A DNA stretch of 64,000 bases from Kangiellaceae bacterium (GTDB lineage: Bacteria > Pseudomonadota > Gammaproteobacteria > Enterobacterales > Kangiellaceae). Positions 2,437 through 29,703 of the stretch are shown piece after piece. The translations under genes were made by a program, and so were the position numbers. The DNA is taken from positions 1 to 64,000 of the forward strand of contig JABXIQ010000027.1 of assembly GCA_013373015.1 (NCBI GenBank), read 5' to 3'. Numbering within the stretch: the stretch's first letter is position 1; every line of letters starts with the position of its first letter. The notes beneath the pieces were generated by a model that saw only the letters and a program-made list of their open reading frames with translations, did not search any database and was not told the origin of the DNA.

Positions 2437-3990
2437 ATGAAAGCAATCATTGCTATCATTTTATTGTGTACAATTCTGCCTCTTTCTTCAAAAGAAGAAA
2501 AAGCTGCAGAATCTATACCTGAATTTCTGACAGTGCAGCAAAAGAATCACTTCTATGAATTAATGGTGCAGGAAATCGAACGTATTGATGCGGAAATAAT
2601 TGAAACTCGTAATCATGCTAAATCGGTTAAATGGAATGATTTTACACAGCATTACAGGAAGTTATTTGAGAAAGCTACTAGTTGGAAAGAGTTATATCAG
2701 GCCTTTCAACATTTTTCACAGGGATTAGTAAACTTACATACTCGCACCAAGTTTTTGGCCTATAAGCCGCAAAAGAAAACAAAAAACAATTGGCTCAATG
2801 ATAAAGTATTATTTGAATACCCAGCCAATAAATATTATTTGGCATCTAATAAATTCGAAATTACCCATTTGAATCAAACCCCCATTCTTGAGGCGTTTGA
2901 AGAGTTTAGTAATCATCGCTGCCGACATAACAATCAAGCTGGTTGTGTGGATATGTTTAGTGTTTACTTGCAGGCTGGGGCAATAAAAGCTGATGGCAAA
3001 GATATAACTGAATTTACGATAGCTTCACCAGATGGTAAGGTTGAAATCATTTCAGCGGAGTTTAATGCTAAGCCTATTGCTAGTACTGATCCGTTTGCAG
3101 ATAAATACTGTAGTACGCATCAAGGTTATAAAGATTTTGATTTGATATTTTCGGGGAAAAATGTGTGTTTATATCGAAAATTGGAGGTTGCAGTATTGCG
3201 TATACGCAACTTTAAATATCAAGATCAAGATGAGTCAGATATTTATTGTCAAAAACAACAAGGTGCTTTCTGCCAAGATATTCACGGCATATTAGAACAG
3301 TTACATTTGCATAAACCATCCCATCTAATTTTTGATGTGATACAAAATTTTGGTGGCAATGAAAATACAAAATTTTTGGCGGCATTTATGCCAAATAACT
3401 TTCAAGACCTGCCGGTTATGTATAAAAATACAGATGAGATGCACGATGCAACAAAAAGGCGTTGGTTATTGTGGGACAACCCCGCTGGTGAAAAGTGGTA
3501 TCAAGCGGTTAAGGATAATAAGCAAGAGTATTTTCCTATAAGAGGAGATTTCTGTCGAGGAAAGAATGGTTGTCATCTATCACTAATAAAGCCTAATCCA
3601 AAAGCGTATGTGGCTGAAAAGGTATCCATCATGTCTGATTGGATGTGTGTGTCTTCATGTGATGATTTTGTTTGGCGAATGCAGCAGTTTGCTGGTGCCA
3701 AACTTTATGGTATCTCACCAGCGCAAGATGCGACTTATGCAAGAGCGCGAATATTACTTTACTTGGATAAGAAAGGGAAAGTATCAACGGTTGTGACTGG
3801 AGAAAGCTATAATCTTGAGATTGAAGATATGGACTTTCAAATAGCGGCATTAACAATACCTTACTCAAAGACGGTTGACCTAGACGGAAAGTTAAGAAAT
3901 ATTCAGTCCGCGAAGTTAGTGGAAGTCCCTTACGCACTCCATAATCAAGAAAATTATCCGCAAGCTGTGTTGGATCGAATTCTTAATTGA
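2437..3990 (+). CDS. Secreted Cys-rich S41 (C-terminal processing)-like peptidase family protein
   Basis: N-terminal signal-like helix; SHLIFDVIQNFGGNENTKF resembles the S41 D-x-R-x-N-x-G-G strand; DWMCVSSCDDFVWRM at the expected nucleophile region; five Cys pairs. Confidence 0.55.
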   Translation: MKAIIAIILLCTILPLSSKEEKAAESIPEFLTVQQKNHFYELMVQEIERIDAEIIETRNHAKSVKWNDFTQHYRKLFEKATSWKELYQAFQHFSQGLVNLHTRTKFLAYKPQKKTKNNWLNDKVLFEYPANKYYLASNKFEITHLNQTPILEAFEEFSNHRCRHNNQAGCVDMFSVYLQAGAIKADGKDITEFTIASPDGKVEIISAEFNAKPIASTDPFADKYCSTHQGYKDFDLIFSGKNVCLYRKLEVAVLRIRNFKYQDQDESDIYCQKQQGAFCQDIHGILEQLHLHKPSHLIFDVIQNFGGNENTKFLAAFMPNNFQDLPVMYKNTDEMHDATKRRWLLWDNPAGEKWYQAVKDNKQEYFPIRGDFCRGKNGCHLSLIKPNPKAYVAEKVSIMSDWMCVSSCDDFVWRMQQFAGAKLYGISPAQDATYARARILLYLDKKGKVSTVVTGESYNLEIEDMDFQIAALTIPYSKTVDLDGKLRNIQSAKLVEVPYALHNQENYPQAVLDRILN

Positions 3991-19256: not shown

Positions 19257-20618
19257 TTAAACGGATTTGAATAGTTGCTCAAGTTCATTAAGCAGCAGTT
19301 TGCCTTGAGTATTATAAGGCAATTGATCAACAAAGCGCCATTTTCTGGGAACAGTTATGGCTTGATATTTATCATTACAATAATGTTTTAGAATTCTGCT
19401 CCACTGAGCCTTTTCATTATCAAGAAGAGGATCTTGTGGTGAACGATCTAATTGTACAACTGCTGCGAGATACTGTCTTTTTTCGTGCAAGACAATGACT
19501 TTAGCATTTTTTACGTGAGGGTGCGCTTGTAAATGATGCTCTATTTCATCAAGAGAAATACGTTTCTCTTCAAGCTTAATAATACGATCTTTTCGCCCTT
19601 GCAATAAAAATTGTCGCTCACCTAAGAGCTGCAGATGATCATCTAACTCAAGAGAAGACTCAAATATATGGCCTGATGTTAATACAGTTTGTTGCTTGCC
19701 AACCTGAGTTAAATATACATCATCAAAGAGTGTCCAATGTTGCTGCTCGGTATTTTGTTGGCGATAACCAATACCTCCTGTCTCAGTACTACCGTACACC
19801 TCAATGGGTAGAGTACCAAGAAGTTGTTGTACTTGTTGCGCAGCGTTAAATGACAAAGGACCTCCAGAGCTAAATATGGTATCAATGTGTATTGTGGGTA
19901 AACTGTCATCAAGCCTGCTTAAAAAGGCAGGTGACGATACAAACACTGTGTCTTGATTAATACAGAGCTCAATCAGTTGTTCGGGGTATTGGATTAATGA
20001 TCGGGAAAAGGGGCGACTTTGCAAAAAAGGCCACAATAAGCGAAACAAAAGACCATAAATATGCTGATGACTGACGCTGGCATAAATCGAATGAGTTTTT
20101 GGTAGTTTGAATGTCTGTTGAATTATGTCTATCTCATTTAACAGTAATTTAAGAGACTTTTTAATAGATTTAGGATTTCCGCTACTTCCAGAAGTAAAGA
20201 AGTAAACTTGGGTTTCTTCAATTCCCGTAATATCGAAATTAACTGGCAAACCAGAAGGTTGCTCAGTAACAGGTTTAGAAGATAGGCTAGGTTTTGCATA
20301 TTGCTGACTTATATTATCAGTGATGATGCAATCAAAATATTGAGTAATATCATTGAGCCATAAAGGCTTATCATTAGCGGTAATGATTATAATTTTTTTG
20401 CAAATAGACAATGCTATAAAATTAACTAAAAATTGATAGCTATCCGTACAATACAAAACAAATCTTTTATAATCTGTACGCTTTATGTTTCGGATGCAAA
20501 ACGAAAGGTCGTGTAAAAATTGCTGATGGTTAATGGTATCGTTGTGATCAGAAAAAGAAACGGTATGCGTGTAACCGTTGAGTAATAAATTCTTAAACGA
20601 AATTAGCGAGCTCATCAT
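19257..20618 (-). CDS. apeH: AMP-dependent acyl-ACP/CoA ligase (ApeH-like)
   Basis: YFFTSGSSGNPKSIKKSL; EVYGSTETGGIGYRQ; GRKDRIIKLEEKRISLDEIEHHL. Confidence 0.88.
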   Translation of the reverse strand: MMSSLISFKNLLLNGYTHTVSFSDHNDTINHQQFLHDLSFCIRNIKRTDYKRFVLYCTDSYQFLVNFIALSICKKIIIITANDKPLWLNDITQYFDCIITDNISQQYAKPSLSSKPVTEQPSGLPVNFDITGIEETQVYFFTSGSSGNPKSIKKSLKLLLNEIDIIQQTFKLPKTHSIYASVSHQHIYGLLFRLLWPFLQSRPFSRSLIQYPEQLIELCINQDTVFVSSPAFLSRLDDSLPTIHIDTIFSSGGPLSFNAAQQVQQLLGTLPIEVYGSTETGGIGYRQQNTEQQHWTLFDDVYLTQVGKQQTVLTSGHIFESSLELDDHLQLLGERQFLLQGRKDRIIKLEEKRISLDEIEHHLQAHPHVKNAKVIVLHEKRQYLAAVVQLDRSPQDPLLDNEKAQWSRILKHYCNDKYQAITVPRKWRFVDQLPYNTQGKLLLNELEQLFKSV

Positions 20619-21178
20619 TATTGTTTTAATATCAATTTTCGGTATATATACTCACCGACGAACAAAATACCCATTAAAAAATAGGATAGGAATCCATTAT
20701 ATAGCGACCATATTTCAAGCGAAGAGAAAAATACGGTATAAGCTGATATGCAGATATTTATCAGGAAAAAAGAACACCAAATAAGTGTAACTTTGCGACA
20801 ATAAACAACGCCTTCTTCAGATAATCCGGGGTCTTGCGCACGCGCAAATCGTTCAATTATAGTCGGTGGATTAAAAAGAGATAATAAAAAAACAATCAGA
20901 AATAAAAAACTCATCAAGACCGGATACAGCCGAATGCCTAAATCAGTATTATTCAAAAAAGAAAAGCCAGCGATCCCTACGCCTATGGCAGTACTTGCAA
21001 TGATTAAGTGCTTGCTCTTTATGCCTGCAAAAGACGGTGAAAACAGTGCTCGCAGTATTACTAGCATACATAACCCTAAAGCAATAAATTTAGCTTCAAA
21101 TTTTTGCAGTCCAAAATAGACTGCAATCGGGTAGATTACTACTAACAGTGCGAGTACAACTTTGAATATTTTTTTCAT
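20618..21178 (-). CDS. apeG: Integral membrane protein of APE cluster (ApeG/COG4648-like)
   Basis: Multiple TM helices; position between ACP and ligase. Confidence 0.7.
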   Translation of the reverse strand: MKKIFKVVLALLVVIYPIAVYFGLQKFEAKFIALGLCMLVILRALFSPSFAGIKSKHLIIASTAIGVGIAGFSFLNNTDLGIRLYPVLMSFLFLIVFLLSLFNPPTIIERFARAQDPGLSEEGVVYCRKVTLIWCSFFLINICISAYTVFFSSLEIWSLYNGFLSYFLMGILFVGEYIYRKLILKQ

Positions 21179-21426
21179 TAACCGTGCAATAATTGATCAA
21201 TTGCATCAACAACGTGCTGAATAGTTCTAACCGATTTAAATGTTTCAGGATCAATTGACTTGCCAGTAAGTTCCTGTAGCTTAATCACTAGATCAACGGT
21301 ATCAATACTGTCTAAATCAAGTTCAGTATAGAGATGAGAGTCTAAGGTGATTTCTTCACGCTCTATTTCAAACTCATCAACTAAAATGGTTACTAACGTT
21401 TCAAAAATTTGTTCTTTGTTTTCCAT
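21178..21426 (-). CDS. apeF: Acyl carrier protein (ApeF-like)
   Basis: YTELDLDSIDTVDLVIKLQE; phosphopantetheine DS motif. Confidence 0.9.
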   Translation of the reverse strand: MENKEQIFETLVTILVDEFEIEREEITLDSHLYTELDLDSIDTVDLVIKLQELTGKSIDPETFKSVRTIQHVVDAIDQLLHG

Positions 21427-21710
21427 TAGGCTGTACCTTTTTGACCTTGAATAAATTGCGCTAAAGTTGCAACAGAATAAAAATGCTTTTTAGACTCTTC
21501 GGAGTTGGCTTCTAGTTTTATTTCAAATTCTTTTTTTAATGCTAACCCTAACTCTAATGCATCAATAGAATCAAGACCTAACCCATCACCAAATAAGGCT
21601 TCGTCAGTTTCAATTTCGTCTACACTGATGTCTTCGAGATCCAAAGCATCAATGATAAGTTGTTTAATTTGCTGCTCAAGTTGTTGCATTGACTTTACAT
21701 TCCTCTTCAA
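21426..21710 (-). CDS. apeE: Acyl carrier protein (ApeE-like)
   Basis: FGDGLGLDSIDALELGLALKKEF. Confidence 0.9.
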   Translation of the reverse strand: MKRNVKSMQQLEQQIKQLIIDALDLEDISVDEIETDEALFGDGLGLDSIDALELGLALKKEFEIKLEANSEESKKHFYSVATLAQFIQGQKGTA

Positions 21711-22464
21711 AAAATTCTTTTAAATGGGCAGTGAGTTTACGTGCCTGAAGTGAAGGACTTAACGTGGGATCAATAAAAGGCTGGATATCGATCTCTGGTC
21801 GAACACAAAGGGTGAAGTTTACCCTTTTATCAGGAATTTGGTACCACTTTTCATTTTTAGTTAAGGTTGTCGGATCACAGTCGATAAGCACTGGGATGAA
21901 ATTTCTTTGGCAACGAAGAGCGATATTGGCTGCTCCTCTTTGCAGTTTCATTGGCTTATTGGGCGTTGTCCGAGTGCCTTCTGGGAAAATTATTAAGTTA
22001 TAACCTTCTTCTAGTGATTCATCGCAAGCATTGATCAGAGGCTCTATATCTTCATCATTTTTGATGAAATTAGCAGCGGTTACCACCCCTTTCAAAAAAG
22101 GATTTTGCCATAGTCCACGTTTTACCACACAGTCTGCTCTGGGCATTATGGAAATTAGTGCAACCACATCAATTAATGATGGATGATTAGCAATAATGAT
22201 TTTCCCAGAAACATGTGCTAGATCGCGTTTTGCTTGTTCTAAATGAAAGGTAAATATACCTAAACTTTGCATCAGTTTTAGAAAAAAGGCAAAACTACGA
22301 TGAATAATGTAGCGCGCTTTTTGTTTGCGCTTATCAATGTCGCGAATAAATAGATTAAGTAGTGGAAAAACAGTAAGTGACAATACTAAGCCGCCAATAC
22401 CAAAAACAGTAAAGCTGATCCCAGTGCCAAGAACTCGCCAAAGATAATTCAACTGGTACATCAT
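21676..22464 (-). CDS. apeD: Lysophospholipid/1-acylglycerol-3-phosphate acyltransferase (ApeD-like)
   Basis: IIANHPSLIDVVAL and IIFPEGTRTTPN. Confidence 0.88.
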   Translation of the reverse strand: MMYQLNYLWRVLGTGISFTVFGIGGLVLSLTVFPLLNLFIRDIDKRKQKARYIIHRSFAFFLKLMQSLGIFTFHLEQAKRDLAHVSGKIIIANHPSLIDVVALISIMPRADCVVKRGLWQNPFLKGVVTAANFIKNDEDIEPLINACDESLEEGYNLIIFPEGTRTTPNKPMKLQRGAANIALRCQRNFIPVLIDCDPTTLTKNEKWYQIPDKRVNFTLCVRPEIDIQPFIDPTLSPSLQARKLTAHLKEFFEEECKVNATT

Positions 22465-23225
22465 GATTTACTAAAAGCCCACTCTCGTTTACCTGTAACA
22501 CACTGTTTTTGTTGCAAGTTTGAATGTAAAAAGTGAATAAATTCAAAGGCTAATGGTAAATCACTATGTTGTGTTAAGTTGTTCCTAAAGCTTACGTTAA
22601 TCATTTGATCTGCTTGCTTATGAGATAGTATTAAAGAGCTACTATAACTAATTTTTGGTTGGCTATAGGCTAAATTCAGTGGTGATGGCGGTGGCTGATC
22701 AAAGCAGGTCAATAGAATATTGTGATTTGGAAAGCGGTGCAGTAAATTGTTTGCTTCTAATAATGCAAAGCCAAAAGTATCAACACTGGCAGCTATGGTT
22801 GTTGCCGGCAAGGTATTTCCACTATTGATCGAATAAAGCCCTAGTGCACTGTTATGAACCGACAAACTGAAGTCTGTGGGTGAAATATCTTCACTCGCAT
22901 TTAAGGTGTTAATTATTTTTACTGTGCGTTCTAATTCTCCATGCTGAGAGGCGAAGATAGTGATGGGATTGCTGGCTGGTTGTTTACTTTGTTCGATAGA
23001 TTGGTAGCTAGTGTGTAAAGCCATTTTTGTCAGCGGGCTCATGCGACGTCGCTTCATTGCAGGAACTTGAGTTAAACTGATCGGATTATGGTCGATAGAG
23101 TTTGCAAGGCTTTTATCATCCAACCGTTCATTAACGTATTCTTGCCATTGCCCATCTACCCACAGACTTGTGCTATGGGTAACAAGAGGTAAACAAAAAG
23201 TGTGACTATAGCCTTGTTTGTTCAT
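22461..23225 (-). CDS. apeC: Beta-ketoacyl synthase-like chain-length factor (ApeC-like), no nucleophile Cys
   Basis: MKRRRMSPLTKMALHTSYQSI; TTIAASVDTFGFALLEA lacks Cys at the KS nucleophile position. Confidence 0.8.
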   Translation of the reverse strand: MNKQGYSHTFCLPLVTHSTSLWVDGQWQEYVNERLDDKSLANSIDHNPISLTQVPAMKRRRMSPLTKMALHTSYQSIEQSKQPASNPITIFASQHGELERTVKIINTLNASEDISPTDFSLSVHNSALGLYSINSGNTLPATTIAASVDTFGFALLEANNLLHRFPNHNILLTCFDQPPPSPLNLAYSQPKISYSSSLILSHKQADQMINVSFRNNLTQHSDLPLAFEFIHFLHSNLQQKQCVTGKREWAFSKS

Positions 23226-25466: not shown

Positions 25467-26315
25467 TTAACTAATAGCGTTTTTAATTTTGTTCATGGCA
25501 TTTTTTTCTAACTGACGGATTCGCTCCGCAGAAACACCATATTTTTCCGCTAATTCGTGCAAGGTGGCTTTTTGGTCATTCAACCAACGTTGTTGCAAAA
25601 TATCTTGGCTACGCTCATCAAGTGCTTTTAGGGCGTGGAACAAGCGTTCTTCACGTTGATCTTGCCAATCTTCTTGCTCAACCGCTAGTGCAGGGTCAGC
25701 GTTTTTAGCCTCAAGATAATGAATTGGCGCGTAAGCCTTTTCATCATCATCAATTGCTGGCGCATCGTAAGAAGCATCGTGCGCGTTTAAGCGCCCTTCC
25801 ATACGGCGAACTTCTTCAGGTTTGACCCCTAATTCTTCGGCAACCGCTTGTAATTCTTGATGATTGAGCCAGTTTAATGATTTCTTTTTAGAGCGAAGAT
25901 TGAAGAACAACTTGCGCTGCGCTTTGGTAGTGGCGACTTTAACAATACGCCAGTTACGCAGCACATACTCATGAATTTCAGCTTTGATCCAATGTACGGC
26001 AAAGGATACTAAGCGAACGCCTACATTCGGGTCGAAGCGTTTCACTGCTTTCATCAGACCGATGTTGCCTTCTTGAATCAAGTCCGCTTGTGGCAAGCCA
26101 TAACCGCTGTAGCTCTTTGCGATATGTACCACAAAGCGTAAGTGAGCCATTACTAACTGACGCGCAGCGTCAAGGTCTTCGTTATCACGAAAATTGTGTG
26201 CTAATGCCTGCTCATCTTCTACAGAGAGGACAGGAATCGCATTTACAGTGCTAACGTAACCATCGATACTGCCAGTTGGTACTGTAAGCGCCATATTCAT
26301 AGAGTTTTTACTCAT
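25467..26315 (-). CDS. rpoH: RNA polymerase heat-shock sigma factor sigma-32
   Basis: [14 protein letters not shown] (RpoH box), [51 protein letters not shown] in region 4; GGAGGG RBS. Confidence 0.97.
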
Positions 26316-26351
26316 GCATTCCCTCCAATGGGTGGTTTATTACTCTTAATA

Positions 26352-26378
26352 TTAGCACTCTTATTGCTTGAGTGCCAA
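26352..26378 (-). promoter_or_regulatory. CIRCE element I (HrcA operator) upstream of rpoH
   Basis: TTAGCACTC-N9-GAGTGCCAA (one mismatch to TTAGCACTC-N9-GAGTGCTAA). Confidence 0.9.
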
Positions 26379-26382
26379 TTTT

Positions 26383-26409
26383 TTAGCACTCCTCAATAAA
26401 GAGTGCTAA
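26383..26409 (-). promoter_or_regulatory. CIRCE element II (HrcA operator) upstream of rpoH
   Basis: TTAGCACTC-N9-GAGTGCTAA, perfect consensus. Confidence 0.95.
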
Positions 26410-26532
26410 CTATAGAGTAAATAATTGGCAAAAAGTTTCAAATGAAAAGGTGTAACAAGCTATGTCGAGCTATGGTTACACCGAGTTTTGAAGAGATAAT
26501 CTTCGATAATTCAATAGGTTAGAGATATTCCG

Positions 26533-27120
26533 TTATTTTTTAGGAACGGTAGCTTCAACTTCGATATTGATATAAACCTCATCAGCAACGGCTGGAACAT
26601 AAGTTTCCATACCGAATTCAGAGCGTTTGATCATGCCAGAAGCAGAAAAACCAATATGCGGTTTGCCGCTGAATGGATGTTCGCCCACCTGATTAAGTAC
26701 CAAATCCAATGTTACAGGCAAGGTTTTACCCAAAATCGTTAGATCACCATGTAAAAGACCTTTATTTTCATCTGTTTTTTCTAACTTGGTACTGTTAAAA
26801 GTCATGCTCGGGAATTCTTCAACATTGAAGAAATCGGCGCTGCGCATATGCTCGTTCCATTTCTTGTTTTCAAGATCGATGCTTTTAGTTTCTATGGTAA
26901 CGTTGGTGCTGGCTGTTTCCCAGTTGTCAGCATCAAAACTTACAGTGCCGTCAAATTTTTTGAATTTACCGTATGAATTTGAAAAGCCTAAGTGATTGAT
27001 TTTGAACACAATTTGGCTATGAATTGTTTCAAGTTCGTAATTAACGTTGTCGGCTTTAGTCTGACCCGATAAAGCTAATGCAGAAGCTAACACTAAAGCA
27101 CTAATAGTTGTTTTAATCAT
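26533..27120 (-). CDS. YceI family periplasmic lipocalin-like protein
   Basis: YELETIHSQIVFKINHLGFSNSYGKFKKFDGTVSFD; HMRSADFFNVEEFPSMTF. Confidence 0.92.
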   Translation of the reverse strand: MIKTTISALVLASALALSGQTKADNVNYELETIHSQIVFKINHLGFSNSYGKFKKFDGTVSFDADNWETASTNVTIETKSIDLENKKWNEHMRSADFFNVEEFPSMTFNSTKLEKTDENKGLLHGDLTILGKTLPVTLDLVLNQVGEHPFSGKPHIGFSASGMIKRSEFGMETYVPAVADEVYINIEVEATVPKK

Positions 27121-27265
27121 GATTGTTTTCCTATAATTTTTCTTGCTAAGGGGAGTGAATTGATACCATACTAGTCAAAAGCACAGAGTATATACAAATA
27201 GCATAGCGTTATTTTGAGTATTACTGCAGAGAATAGTTAGCAAGATTGAGAAAAGGAGCAATATT

Positions 27266-27640
27266 ATGATTGGTTATGTCACTTTAGGAACGAATGATTT
27301 ACAGCGCGCGGCAGCATTTTATGATCAGCTATTTGCTGAGCTGGGAGTAGGGCGCATGATGGAGACGGAGCAATTTATTGCCTGGAATGGGATCGGTGAT
27401 GCACCAGGAGTTGCATTAACGAAACCCTTTGATGGACAGCAAGCGACGGTGGGCAATGGCACTATGGTTGCTTTTATGATGGATTCACCCGAAACGGTGG
27501 ATCGCATGTATCACAAAGCCATAGAACTGGGGGCATCCTGTGAAGGACCCGCGGGACCGAGAGGGGATAGTTTTTATGCAGGTTATTTCCGTGATCCCGA
27601 TGGCAATAAATGCAATTTCTTTTACATGACACAACCTTAA
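27266..27640 (+). CDS. VOC (glyoxalase/dioxygenase) family protein
   Basis: GYVTLGTNDLQRAAAFYDQLF; FYAGYFRDPDGNKCNFFY. Confidence 0.9.
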   Translation: MIGYVTLGTNDLQRAAAFYDQLFAELGVGRMMETEQFIAWNGIGDAPGVALTKPFDGQQATVGNGTMVAFMMDSPETVDRMYHKAIELGASCEGPAGPRGDSFYAGYFRDPDGNKCNFFYMTQP

Positions 27641-27661
27641 ACTAGTAAATAACTAATTGAT

Positions 27662-28027
27662 ATGTTTAAGAAAATAGCCTTTGCATTAGCTACTTTGGTA
27701 GCCATTGAGCATATCGGAATTTTAGTCTTGGAGATGTTCTTTTGGGATCATCCGATTGGGCGTAAAGTTTTTAATATGTCGGAGCAGGTATCGAGTGCAT
27801 CAGCAACATTAGCGGCTAATCAAGGGCTCTATAATGGTTTTTTAGCAGCAGGTTTGATTTGGGGTTTGTTGACAAAAAAACGCGATATATTGGTGTTTTT
27901 CTTGAGCTGTGTGGTGGTTGCTGGGATTTTTGGCGCCATCACTGCTAAACCCAGTATTTTGTTTACTCAAGCGATGCCAGCTTTATTGGGACTGATTTTC
28001 TTGGTATTAGCCAAAAAGGAAAAGTAA
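27662..28027 (+). CDS. DUF1304 family membrane protein
   Basis: Four TM helices; EHIGILVLEMFFWDHPIGRKVFNMS. Confidence 0.75.
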   Translation: MFKKIAFALATLVAIEHIGILVLEMFFWDHPIGRKVFNMSEQVSSASATLAANQGLYNGFLAAGLIWGLLTKKRDILVFFLSCVVVAGIFGAITAKPSILFTQAMPALLGLIFLVLAKKEK

Positions 28028-28049
28028 AGGGAGCTTATTGACAGTAAAA

Positions 28050-29027
28050 CTAGTTAGGTTGAATATCGCGTAGATGTTTATTCACTGAAATCCAAGCGCC
28101 AATCAAACCCAAGCCAGCGCCAAATGCCAGCAAACTCAAAGTGTGGCTCGGCGCTAATCCCATCAAGCTGAAGCCGCTGCTGTACAATTCAGCGAGTGTT
28201 GAGGCCGAACCGCGTAATACGGCAATGACGATATTGACCATTAGCGCAGCGAGTAGGGCGGCGATCAGTCCATACCAAAAACCTGTGTATAGAAAAGGTC
28301 GACGAATAAAGCCATCGGTTGCGCCTACCAGTTTAATCACCTGAATTTCTTCACGCCGATTAAGAATGGCTAAACGTATGGTGTTACCGACGATCAGCAA
28401 AACCGCCATAGCCAATAAAATACTCACGAACGAGCCAATTTTTTGCGCCATATCGAGCATTGCATGGTATTTTTGAACCCATTGCATATCCATTTGTGCG
28501 ACATCGACAATACGCTCTTGTTGTAATTCATCAACAAGTACTTGGGCTTGGCTTGGAGTCGCAACCTCAGAGCTAGGAGTAAGTACTAACATCGCTGGAA
28601 GCGGGTTATCATCAAGGTATTCAAGAGCATCACCAAAACCTGACGAACTCTTAAACTCTTCTAAAGCTTGTTGTTTGCTGACTAACGTTACCTGATCAAA
28701 TTCGGGACGCAAATTGAGCTTTTGCATCAACTCTTGAGTAGCTTGCTCAGTAGTATTGTCTTTAAGGAATAATGCCATCTGCACACCACCATTCCAGCTA
28801 CCGCTGACCGCTTTAGCGTTTTGACTAAACACATAAAAAGCACTCGGCAAAGCTAAAGCAATGGCCAAAACTAAGATTGTCATTAAGCTATTGGCGGGTT
28901 GGCGCAAAATATCCAGCAAAGTAGAAACACTATTTTTCTTATGCAAAGAAAGTGCCATTTTGATGCGATCGAGCAGGCTAACCTTTGCGGTGGTGGCACT
29001 ATGCCCTTTATGAACGGTTTTAGCCAT
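28050..29027 (-). CDS. ftsX: Cell-division ABC transporter permease FtsX (start revised to MAKTVHKG)
   Basis: FtsX topology; NRREEIQVIKLVGATDGFIRRPFLYTGFWYG; adjacent to ftsE. Confidence 0.93.
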   Translation of the reverse strand: MAKTVHKGHSATTAKVSLLDRIKMALSLHKKNSVSTLLDILRQPANSLMTILVLAIALALPSAFYVFSQNAKAVSGSWNGGVQMALFLKDNTTEQATQELMQKLNLRPEFDQVTLVSKQQALEEFKSSSGFGDALEYLDDNPLPAMLVLTPSSEVATPSQAQVLVDELQQERIVDVAQMDMQWVQKYHAMLDMAQKIGSFVSILLAMAVLLIVGNTIRLAILNRREEIQVIKLVGATDGFIRRPFLYTGFWYGLIAALLAALMVNIVIAVLRGSASTLAELYSSGFSLMGLAPSHTLSLLAFGAGLGLIGAWISVNKHLRDIQPN

Positions 29028-29703
29028 CGAATTCAGCCTCCGCCAGTTCATTGCGAATGGTGCGACCATCTTTCAGTGTCAGTACAGGATGTTTCATGCG
29101 AGCAATCAGTCCCAAGTCGTGCGAAGCGATCAAAACGCTAACGCCAACTTGTTGAAATTGCTCAAATAATTTCATGATCTCGGCTGATAATTCAGGATCA
29201 AGATTACCAGTGGGTTCATCGGCTAATAATAACGGTGGTTTATTGACGACTGCGCGCGCAATGCCGACCCGTTGTTGCTCACCACCCGATAACTGGATCG
29301 GAAGTTGCTTTTCTTTGTTGAGTAGGCCGACTTTATCTAAAGCAGCACGCACTCGTTTAGGAATATCGCGATCGGATACTCCAGCGATAACTAAAGGTAA
29401 AGCTACATTATCATAGACGCTGCGATCGAATAATAAGCGGTGATCTTGAAAAATCATGCCAATCTTGCGGCGATGATAGGGAATATGGCGATCTTTGACT
29501 TGCGAAATATTTTGTCCATCAAGGATCACTTGGCCACGAGTAGGACGTTCCATCAAAGCAATTAATTTCAGTAAGGTGCTTTTACCAGCGCCAGAATGGC
29601 CAGTCAAAAATGCCATTTCACCATTCGCAAGGGCAAAACTAACCCCTTTTAAGGCTTCATGACCACCTTCGTATCGCTTAAAAACCTGATGAAATTCAAT
29701 CAT
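29020..29703 (-). CDS. ftsE: Cell-division ATP-binding protein FtsE
   Basis: Walker [35 protein letters not shown]. Confidence 0.96.

Follow-up and report, generated by a model that had tools for sequence, protein, structure and literature searches.

In the source species, the heat-shock sigma factor gene rpoH is likely to be repressed by HrcA at two promoters and released together with groESL, in a feed-forward loop with GroEL feedback. What has been observed of this circuit is a set of operators and promoter-like elements, together with their conservation and their co-occurrence with hrcA. The rpoH region of the window, which is the whole 64-kb stretch of DNA that was analysed, has the following features.

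25467-26315, minus strand: rpoH, heat-shock sigma factor (sigma-32), 282 amino acids, NCBIfam TIGR02392 rpoH_proteo
26321-26326, minus strand: Shine-Dalgarno sequence GGAGGG of rpoH, read from the sequence and conserved in the genus alignment
26349-26378, minus strand: sigma70-like promoter overlapping the proximal CIRCE, -35 TTGGCA (26378-26373), extended -10 TGC-TAATAT (26357-26349)
26352-26378, minus strand: proximal CIRCE (predicted HrcA operator), 1 mismatch to the consensus; 0-2 mismatches in 20/20 genus members
26383-26409, minus strand: distal CIRCE (predicted HrcA operator), perfect match; 0-1 mismatch in 20/20 genus members
26412-26439, minus strand: sigma-E-like promoter, -35 GAAACTT (26439-26433), N16, -10 TCTAT (26416-26412)
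26533-27120, minus strand: YceI-family protein gene, the upstream neighbour of rpoH; best NCBIfam match NF002994, below its cut-off

An earlier note on this DNA had described tandem CIRCE elements, 31 bp apart from start to start and 37 bp upstream of the rpoH ATG. Scanning with the pattern TTAGCACTC-N9-GAGTGCTAA at up to 3 mismatches gave exactly two matches in the window and reproduced this arrangement; the gap between the proximal site and the ATG (A at 26315) was measured as 36 bp, which makes the description accurate within one base. The number of CIRCE matches expected by chance in the window was 0.03 as estimated from shuffles, and two sites were seen in 0 of 100 shuffles. Both matches have the arms-N9-arms form of an inverted repeat, with 0 and 1 mismatch, and lie near the start of a heat-shock gene in a genome that also carries a groESL CIRCE. 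The two sites upstream of rpoH are predicted to be operators at which HrcA would bind and regulate the gene. Their separation of about three helical turns would suit a pair of HrcA dimers bound to the same side of the helix, with putative cooperativity or bridging.

The proposed repressor is encoded in the source genome (2.58 Mb in 62 contigs, 95% complete), where one hrcA gene was found (PF01628, 211.9 bits). The gene is followed by grpE, and its 344-amino-acid product carries PF01628 (HrcA C-terminal domain) and PF03444 (HrcA DNA-binding domain). Four CIRCE-like sites were listed genome-wide: two at rpoH, one at groESL (C60:73225) and one of chance type. The last (C21:6414), with 2 mismatches and a position where an L-serine dehydratase-like frame ends, is not common to other genus genomes and was rejected as a chance match. 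Two CIRCE elements at rpoH and one preceding groES form the set in 20/20 genus genomes, and isolated 3-mismatch matches are not shared among them. The double site was also recovered in the relatives, since both elements, with no more than 2 mismatches, stand 31 bp apart in all 20 genus members. No CIRCE with up to 5 mismatches precedes hrcA in the oriented genus loci (about a third were unoriented), and none was seen by eye before hrcA in the source genome. Autoregulation of hrcA through a CIRCE of its own was considered and rejected, the best upstream sites in the oriented loci being no better than 6 mismatches.

Among 15 further members of the family, both elements are kept (up to 3 mismatches, 30-33 bp apart) in 8, and at least one is kept in all 15. 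hrcA was not detected in G025 and G027, both of them nearly complete genomes of the family. Each has a single 2-mismatch CIRCE remnant at rpoH beside an intact sigma-E-type promoter, and no CIRCE with up to 2 mismatches was found elsewhere in either genome. These remnants are suggestive, and only suggestive, of decay of CIRCE at rpoH after loss of hrcA, because the hrcA-positive family member G024 also has a weak rpoH CIRCE and no better site. In G035, neither hrcA nor rpoH was found, and an intact CIRCE with a groESL-type spacer is present; this genome may be incomplete. G029 has a second rpoH-like frame (C30:5496-6480) with seven stop codons and about 51% identity to RpoH; a perfect CIRCE is nearby, and the frame is possibly a decayed rpoH copy.

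The promoter account in the earlier note held in one part. The minus-strand TTGGCA-N18-TAATAT that it reported was located by consensus scan at 26378-26349, with TG preceding the -10, while a conserved sigma-E-like promoter, present in 30/35 family members, had been overlooked. Two bases separate the end of this element (26439-26412) from the distal CIRCE, and the element has the GGAACTT-like -35, a spacer of about N16 and the TCnnA-like -10 of a sigma-E promoter, with a difference in the fifth -10 base in the window. The pattern [GT][AG]AACTT-N16-TC[TCA] upstream of rpoH, as counted in those 30 of 35 genomes, reached a mean of 0.16 and a maximum of 1 in 300 shuffles. It was found in 0/20 genus genomes when the groESL upstream regions were searched. 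In most family members the distal CIRCE contains the -10. The window belongs to one clade in which the whole promoter is shifted upstream, by 14 bp in the window itself and by 22-23 bp in the others; its internal spacing is unchanged, so the -10 moves along with the -35. A sigma-32 promoter at rpoH was found in 0/35 family members.

The assignment of these elements to particular sigma factors is a prediction from their consensus. It is conceivable, if rather unlikely, that the upstream box is not a sigma-E promoter and that the sigma70-type promoter with CIRCE alone is functional. The box was recognised by its consensus alone, and among 36 CIRCE-rpoH loci from outside the family it is absent at that position in 13, mostly of Burkholderiales type. 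Against this stand its fixed offset and spacing, the joint displacement of -10 and -35 in the shifted clade and the presence of rpoE, which was detected in 20/20 genus genomes (TIGR02939, over cut-off). In several of these, a GGAACTT...GTCTGTG stretch was seen by eye upstream of rpoE. Moreover, conservation of the -35 and the -10 is linked. In 20 of the 36 outside loci, a GGAACTT-type -35 box precedes CIRCE by 16-17 bases, compared with no more than 5 for any four-base window in shuffles, and CIRCE runs into TCnnA in 20/23 loci with a GAAC box versus 1/13 without (p = 4e-6). The linkage of the GAAC box with TCnnA is the strongest sign that a sigma-E-type promoter is real, and such a promoter is retained in the reading preferred here.

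The case for the sigma70-like promoter is drawn from conservation, since a single match, as found here, is no more than shuffles give. At the proximal CIRCE, the right arm together with the three bases that follow it makes up an extended -10 (TGCTAATAT in the window). The final T of this -10, outside CIRCE, is kept in 35 of the 36 rpoH loci that have a single CIRCE in other taxa, and some letters of the -35 and -10 are dictated by the CIRCE palindrome itself. Given hrcA in the genome, the conserved double CIRCE and the conserved sigma70-like -10, repression of sigma-32 synthesis by HrcA, as the earlier note had proposed, is the best reading, with binding and repression as its predicted parts.

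For the distribution of the rpoH operator, 80 rpoH loci were examined; they come from named records, Beta/Gammaproteobacterial and related, and were selected for similarity to the RpoH of the window. A CIRCE with up to 3 mismatches within 330 bp upstream was present in 36/80 loci. It occurred in 33/37 hrcA-positive versus 3/43 hrcA-negative genomes (Fisher p = 1.2e-14), where p-values, as elsewhere in this work, serve as guides only because related species and family members are not independent counts and the sample was drawn by similarity. The three hrcA-negative exceptions are metagenome-assembled genomes and may be incomplete. The site at rpoH had been regarded as a departure from the usual locations of CIRCE; the 33 of 37 figure indicates that it is common instead, and there is a precedent in Geobacter (PMC545781).

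The same distribution bears on a reading at the RNA level, in which CIRCE stem-loops in the rpoH leader would alter mRNA stability or translation and would not act as an HrcA operator. CIRCE can form a stem-loop in a leader, and an effect on mRNA stability has been reported in Bacillus; the proximal CIRCE, at least, would be part of any sigma-E transcript that begins near the distal site. Nevertheless, the presence of CIRCE follows hrcA over the 80 genomes, the arm sequence itself is conserved beyond pairing and a sigma70-type transcript would begin after the proximal CIRCE. This reading was judged very improbable, and the sites continue to be treated here as predicted HrcA operators.

The tandem form is restricted. 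At the outside single-site loci, no second CIRCE with up to 6 mismatches was found within 60 bp. An exact-core tandem pattern matched 2/274 Gammaproteobacterial genomes, the source genome and G298, both at rpoH; this is a rough figure because the pattern is blind to core mismatches and found 7/20 genus members. In G298, which belongs to another family, the two elements (L248, 1495-1575) have a 42-bp spacing and are preceded immediately by a sigma-E-like box, GAAACTT-N15-TCAAA. Because this pair from another family also lies upstream of rpoH, doubling of the operator at rpoH probably happened at least twice.

Two variations on the rpoH operator were noted in passing. Xanthomonadales-type loci (L038, about 3928-3954; L068, about 3963-3989; L057 and L070, upstream of rpoH) carry TTAGCAGTC-N9-(G/C)ACTGCTAA or a weaker form with both arms changed, which may reflect a changed specificity of HrcA or the weakening of the site. 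In Pseudoalteromonas luteoviolacea the rpoH CIRCE is perfect (L027, 3671-3697), and the only HrcA match is divergent (46.6 bits versus about 210 in others).

In 20/20 genus genomes, the right arm of the groESL CIRCE is overlapped by a predicted sigma-32 promoter, CTTGA(A/G)-N13-15-CCCCAT(A/T)T. With this overlap the circuit looks feed-forward and not a simple series: HrcA would seem to control groESL both in its own right and via sigma-32. The earlier proposal of HrcA over sigma-32 in series stood as far as the HrcA sites at rpoH are concerned and was incomplete in that groESL has its own CIRCE and sigma-32 promoter.

A reading in which the two circuits run in parallel was given a low probability. 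HrcA would then bind CIRCE and only trim basal rpoH mRNA, while sigma-32 would be set post-transcriptionally as in E. coli, where sigma-32 is regulated mainly through its translation and stability (RNA thermometer, chaperone-linked degradation). In keeping with this, RpoH here is a normal full-length sigma-32 (TIGR02392 equivalog, 410.3 bits versus a cut-off of 323.1) encoded by one copy per genome in 20/20 genus members. On the other hand, double operators with a fixed spacing throughout the genus point to a selected function. In addition, when an RNA thermometer of the E. coli type was looked for, the rpoH start regions of the family were predicted to be open (mean z +0.95, n = 29) with little change with temperature, as folded with an assumed leader length and with controls that did not separate, although this folding did not distinguish CIRCE-positive from CIRCE-negative loci (p = 0.77).

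In the feed-forward circuit preferred here, HrcA made active by free GroEL would occupy both CIRCE elements on one face of the DNA under non-stress conditions and would block two rpoH promoters. The distal element would cover the start region of the sigma-E-type promoter and the proximal element the sigma70-type promoter. When unfolded protein fills GroEL, HrcA would become inactive and rpoH and groESL would be derepressed together. New sigma-32 would then drive groESL transcription from the promoter overlapping the groESL CIRCE, and the extra GroEL would re-activate HrcA, so that feedback closes the feed-forward loop. Envelope stress, acting through sigma-E, would bring rpoH to its full level only while HrcA is inactive. 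Control of HrcA by GroEL in the source species is presumed in this scheme.

The usual teaching is that heat-shock control relies either on HrcA as a repressor or on sigma-32 as a sigma factor, or on both in parallel. In E. coli, which is without hrcA, rpoH is a sigma-E target through promoter P3. The system described here resembles P3 in that a sigma-E-type promoter serves rpoH and differs in that CIRCE abuts or overlaps that promoter. The tandem form, the overlap with the sigma-E-type promoter and the breadth of the link to hrcA are new within the literature searched. The likeliest places for prior claims are reportedly Ueki and Lovley (2007) and Permina and Gelfand (2003); the latter is said to deal with beta, gamma and epsilon groups and may report more on the rpoH link.

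The closest published case is that of Geobacter sulfurreducens, for which a perfect CIRCE was predicted 51 bp before rpoH (-51) (Rodionov et al. 2004, PMC545781, Table 8). It shares with the window a perfect CIRCE close upstream of rpoH, and hrcA and a groESL CIRCE in the genome; it differs in being a deltaproteobacterium with a single rpoH site and a further CIRCE at hrcA-grpE-dnaKJ, and a sigma-E promoter is not part of the description in the portion of that source consulted (PMC545781). In Agrobacterium tumefaciens, groESL is under both RpoH and HrcA (cited in PMC11764788). The two systems are described there as differential and independent, whereas rpoH in the window also has CIRCE.

In most of the sampled hrcA-bearing Beta/Gammaproteobacteria, the data suggest a repressor acting on a sigma-factor gene, often on an envelope-stress-type promoter. 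If so, chaperonin status, envelope stress and sigma-32 output would converge on a single short segment of DNA, with E. coli as the exceptional case. The chances seem about even that a circuit in which HrcA gates a sigma-E-driven rpoH promoter is old and general in Beta- and Gammaproteobacteria and was lost with hrcA in enterics, vibrios and pseudomonads, with E. coli as a derived state and with the rpoH operator doubled independently at least twice.

Upstream of rpoH, the YceI-like gene is the adjoining gene in 14/20 genus loci. Because no terminator-like site was found between the two genes in a scan of 26200-26600, read-through from the yceI-like gene could provide an additional, HrcA-independent source of rpoH mRNA. 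The YceI-like gene and two plus-strand genes (26533-29069) separate ftsX from rpoH in the window, while in other genera of the family ftsX directly adjoins rpoH, as in E. coli. Elsewhere in the window, a run of minus-strand genes (19257-23225) was judged by eye to encode two acyl-carrier-like proteins, one acyltransferase-like protein and one AMP-ligase-like protein, and by eye it resembles an aryl polyene-type cluster.
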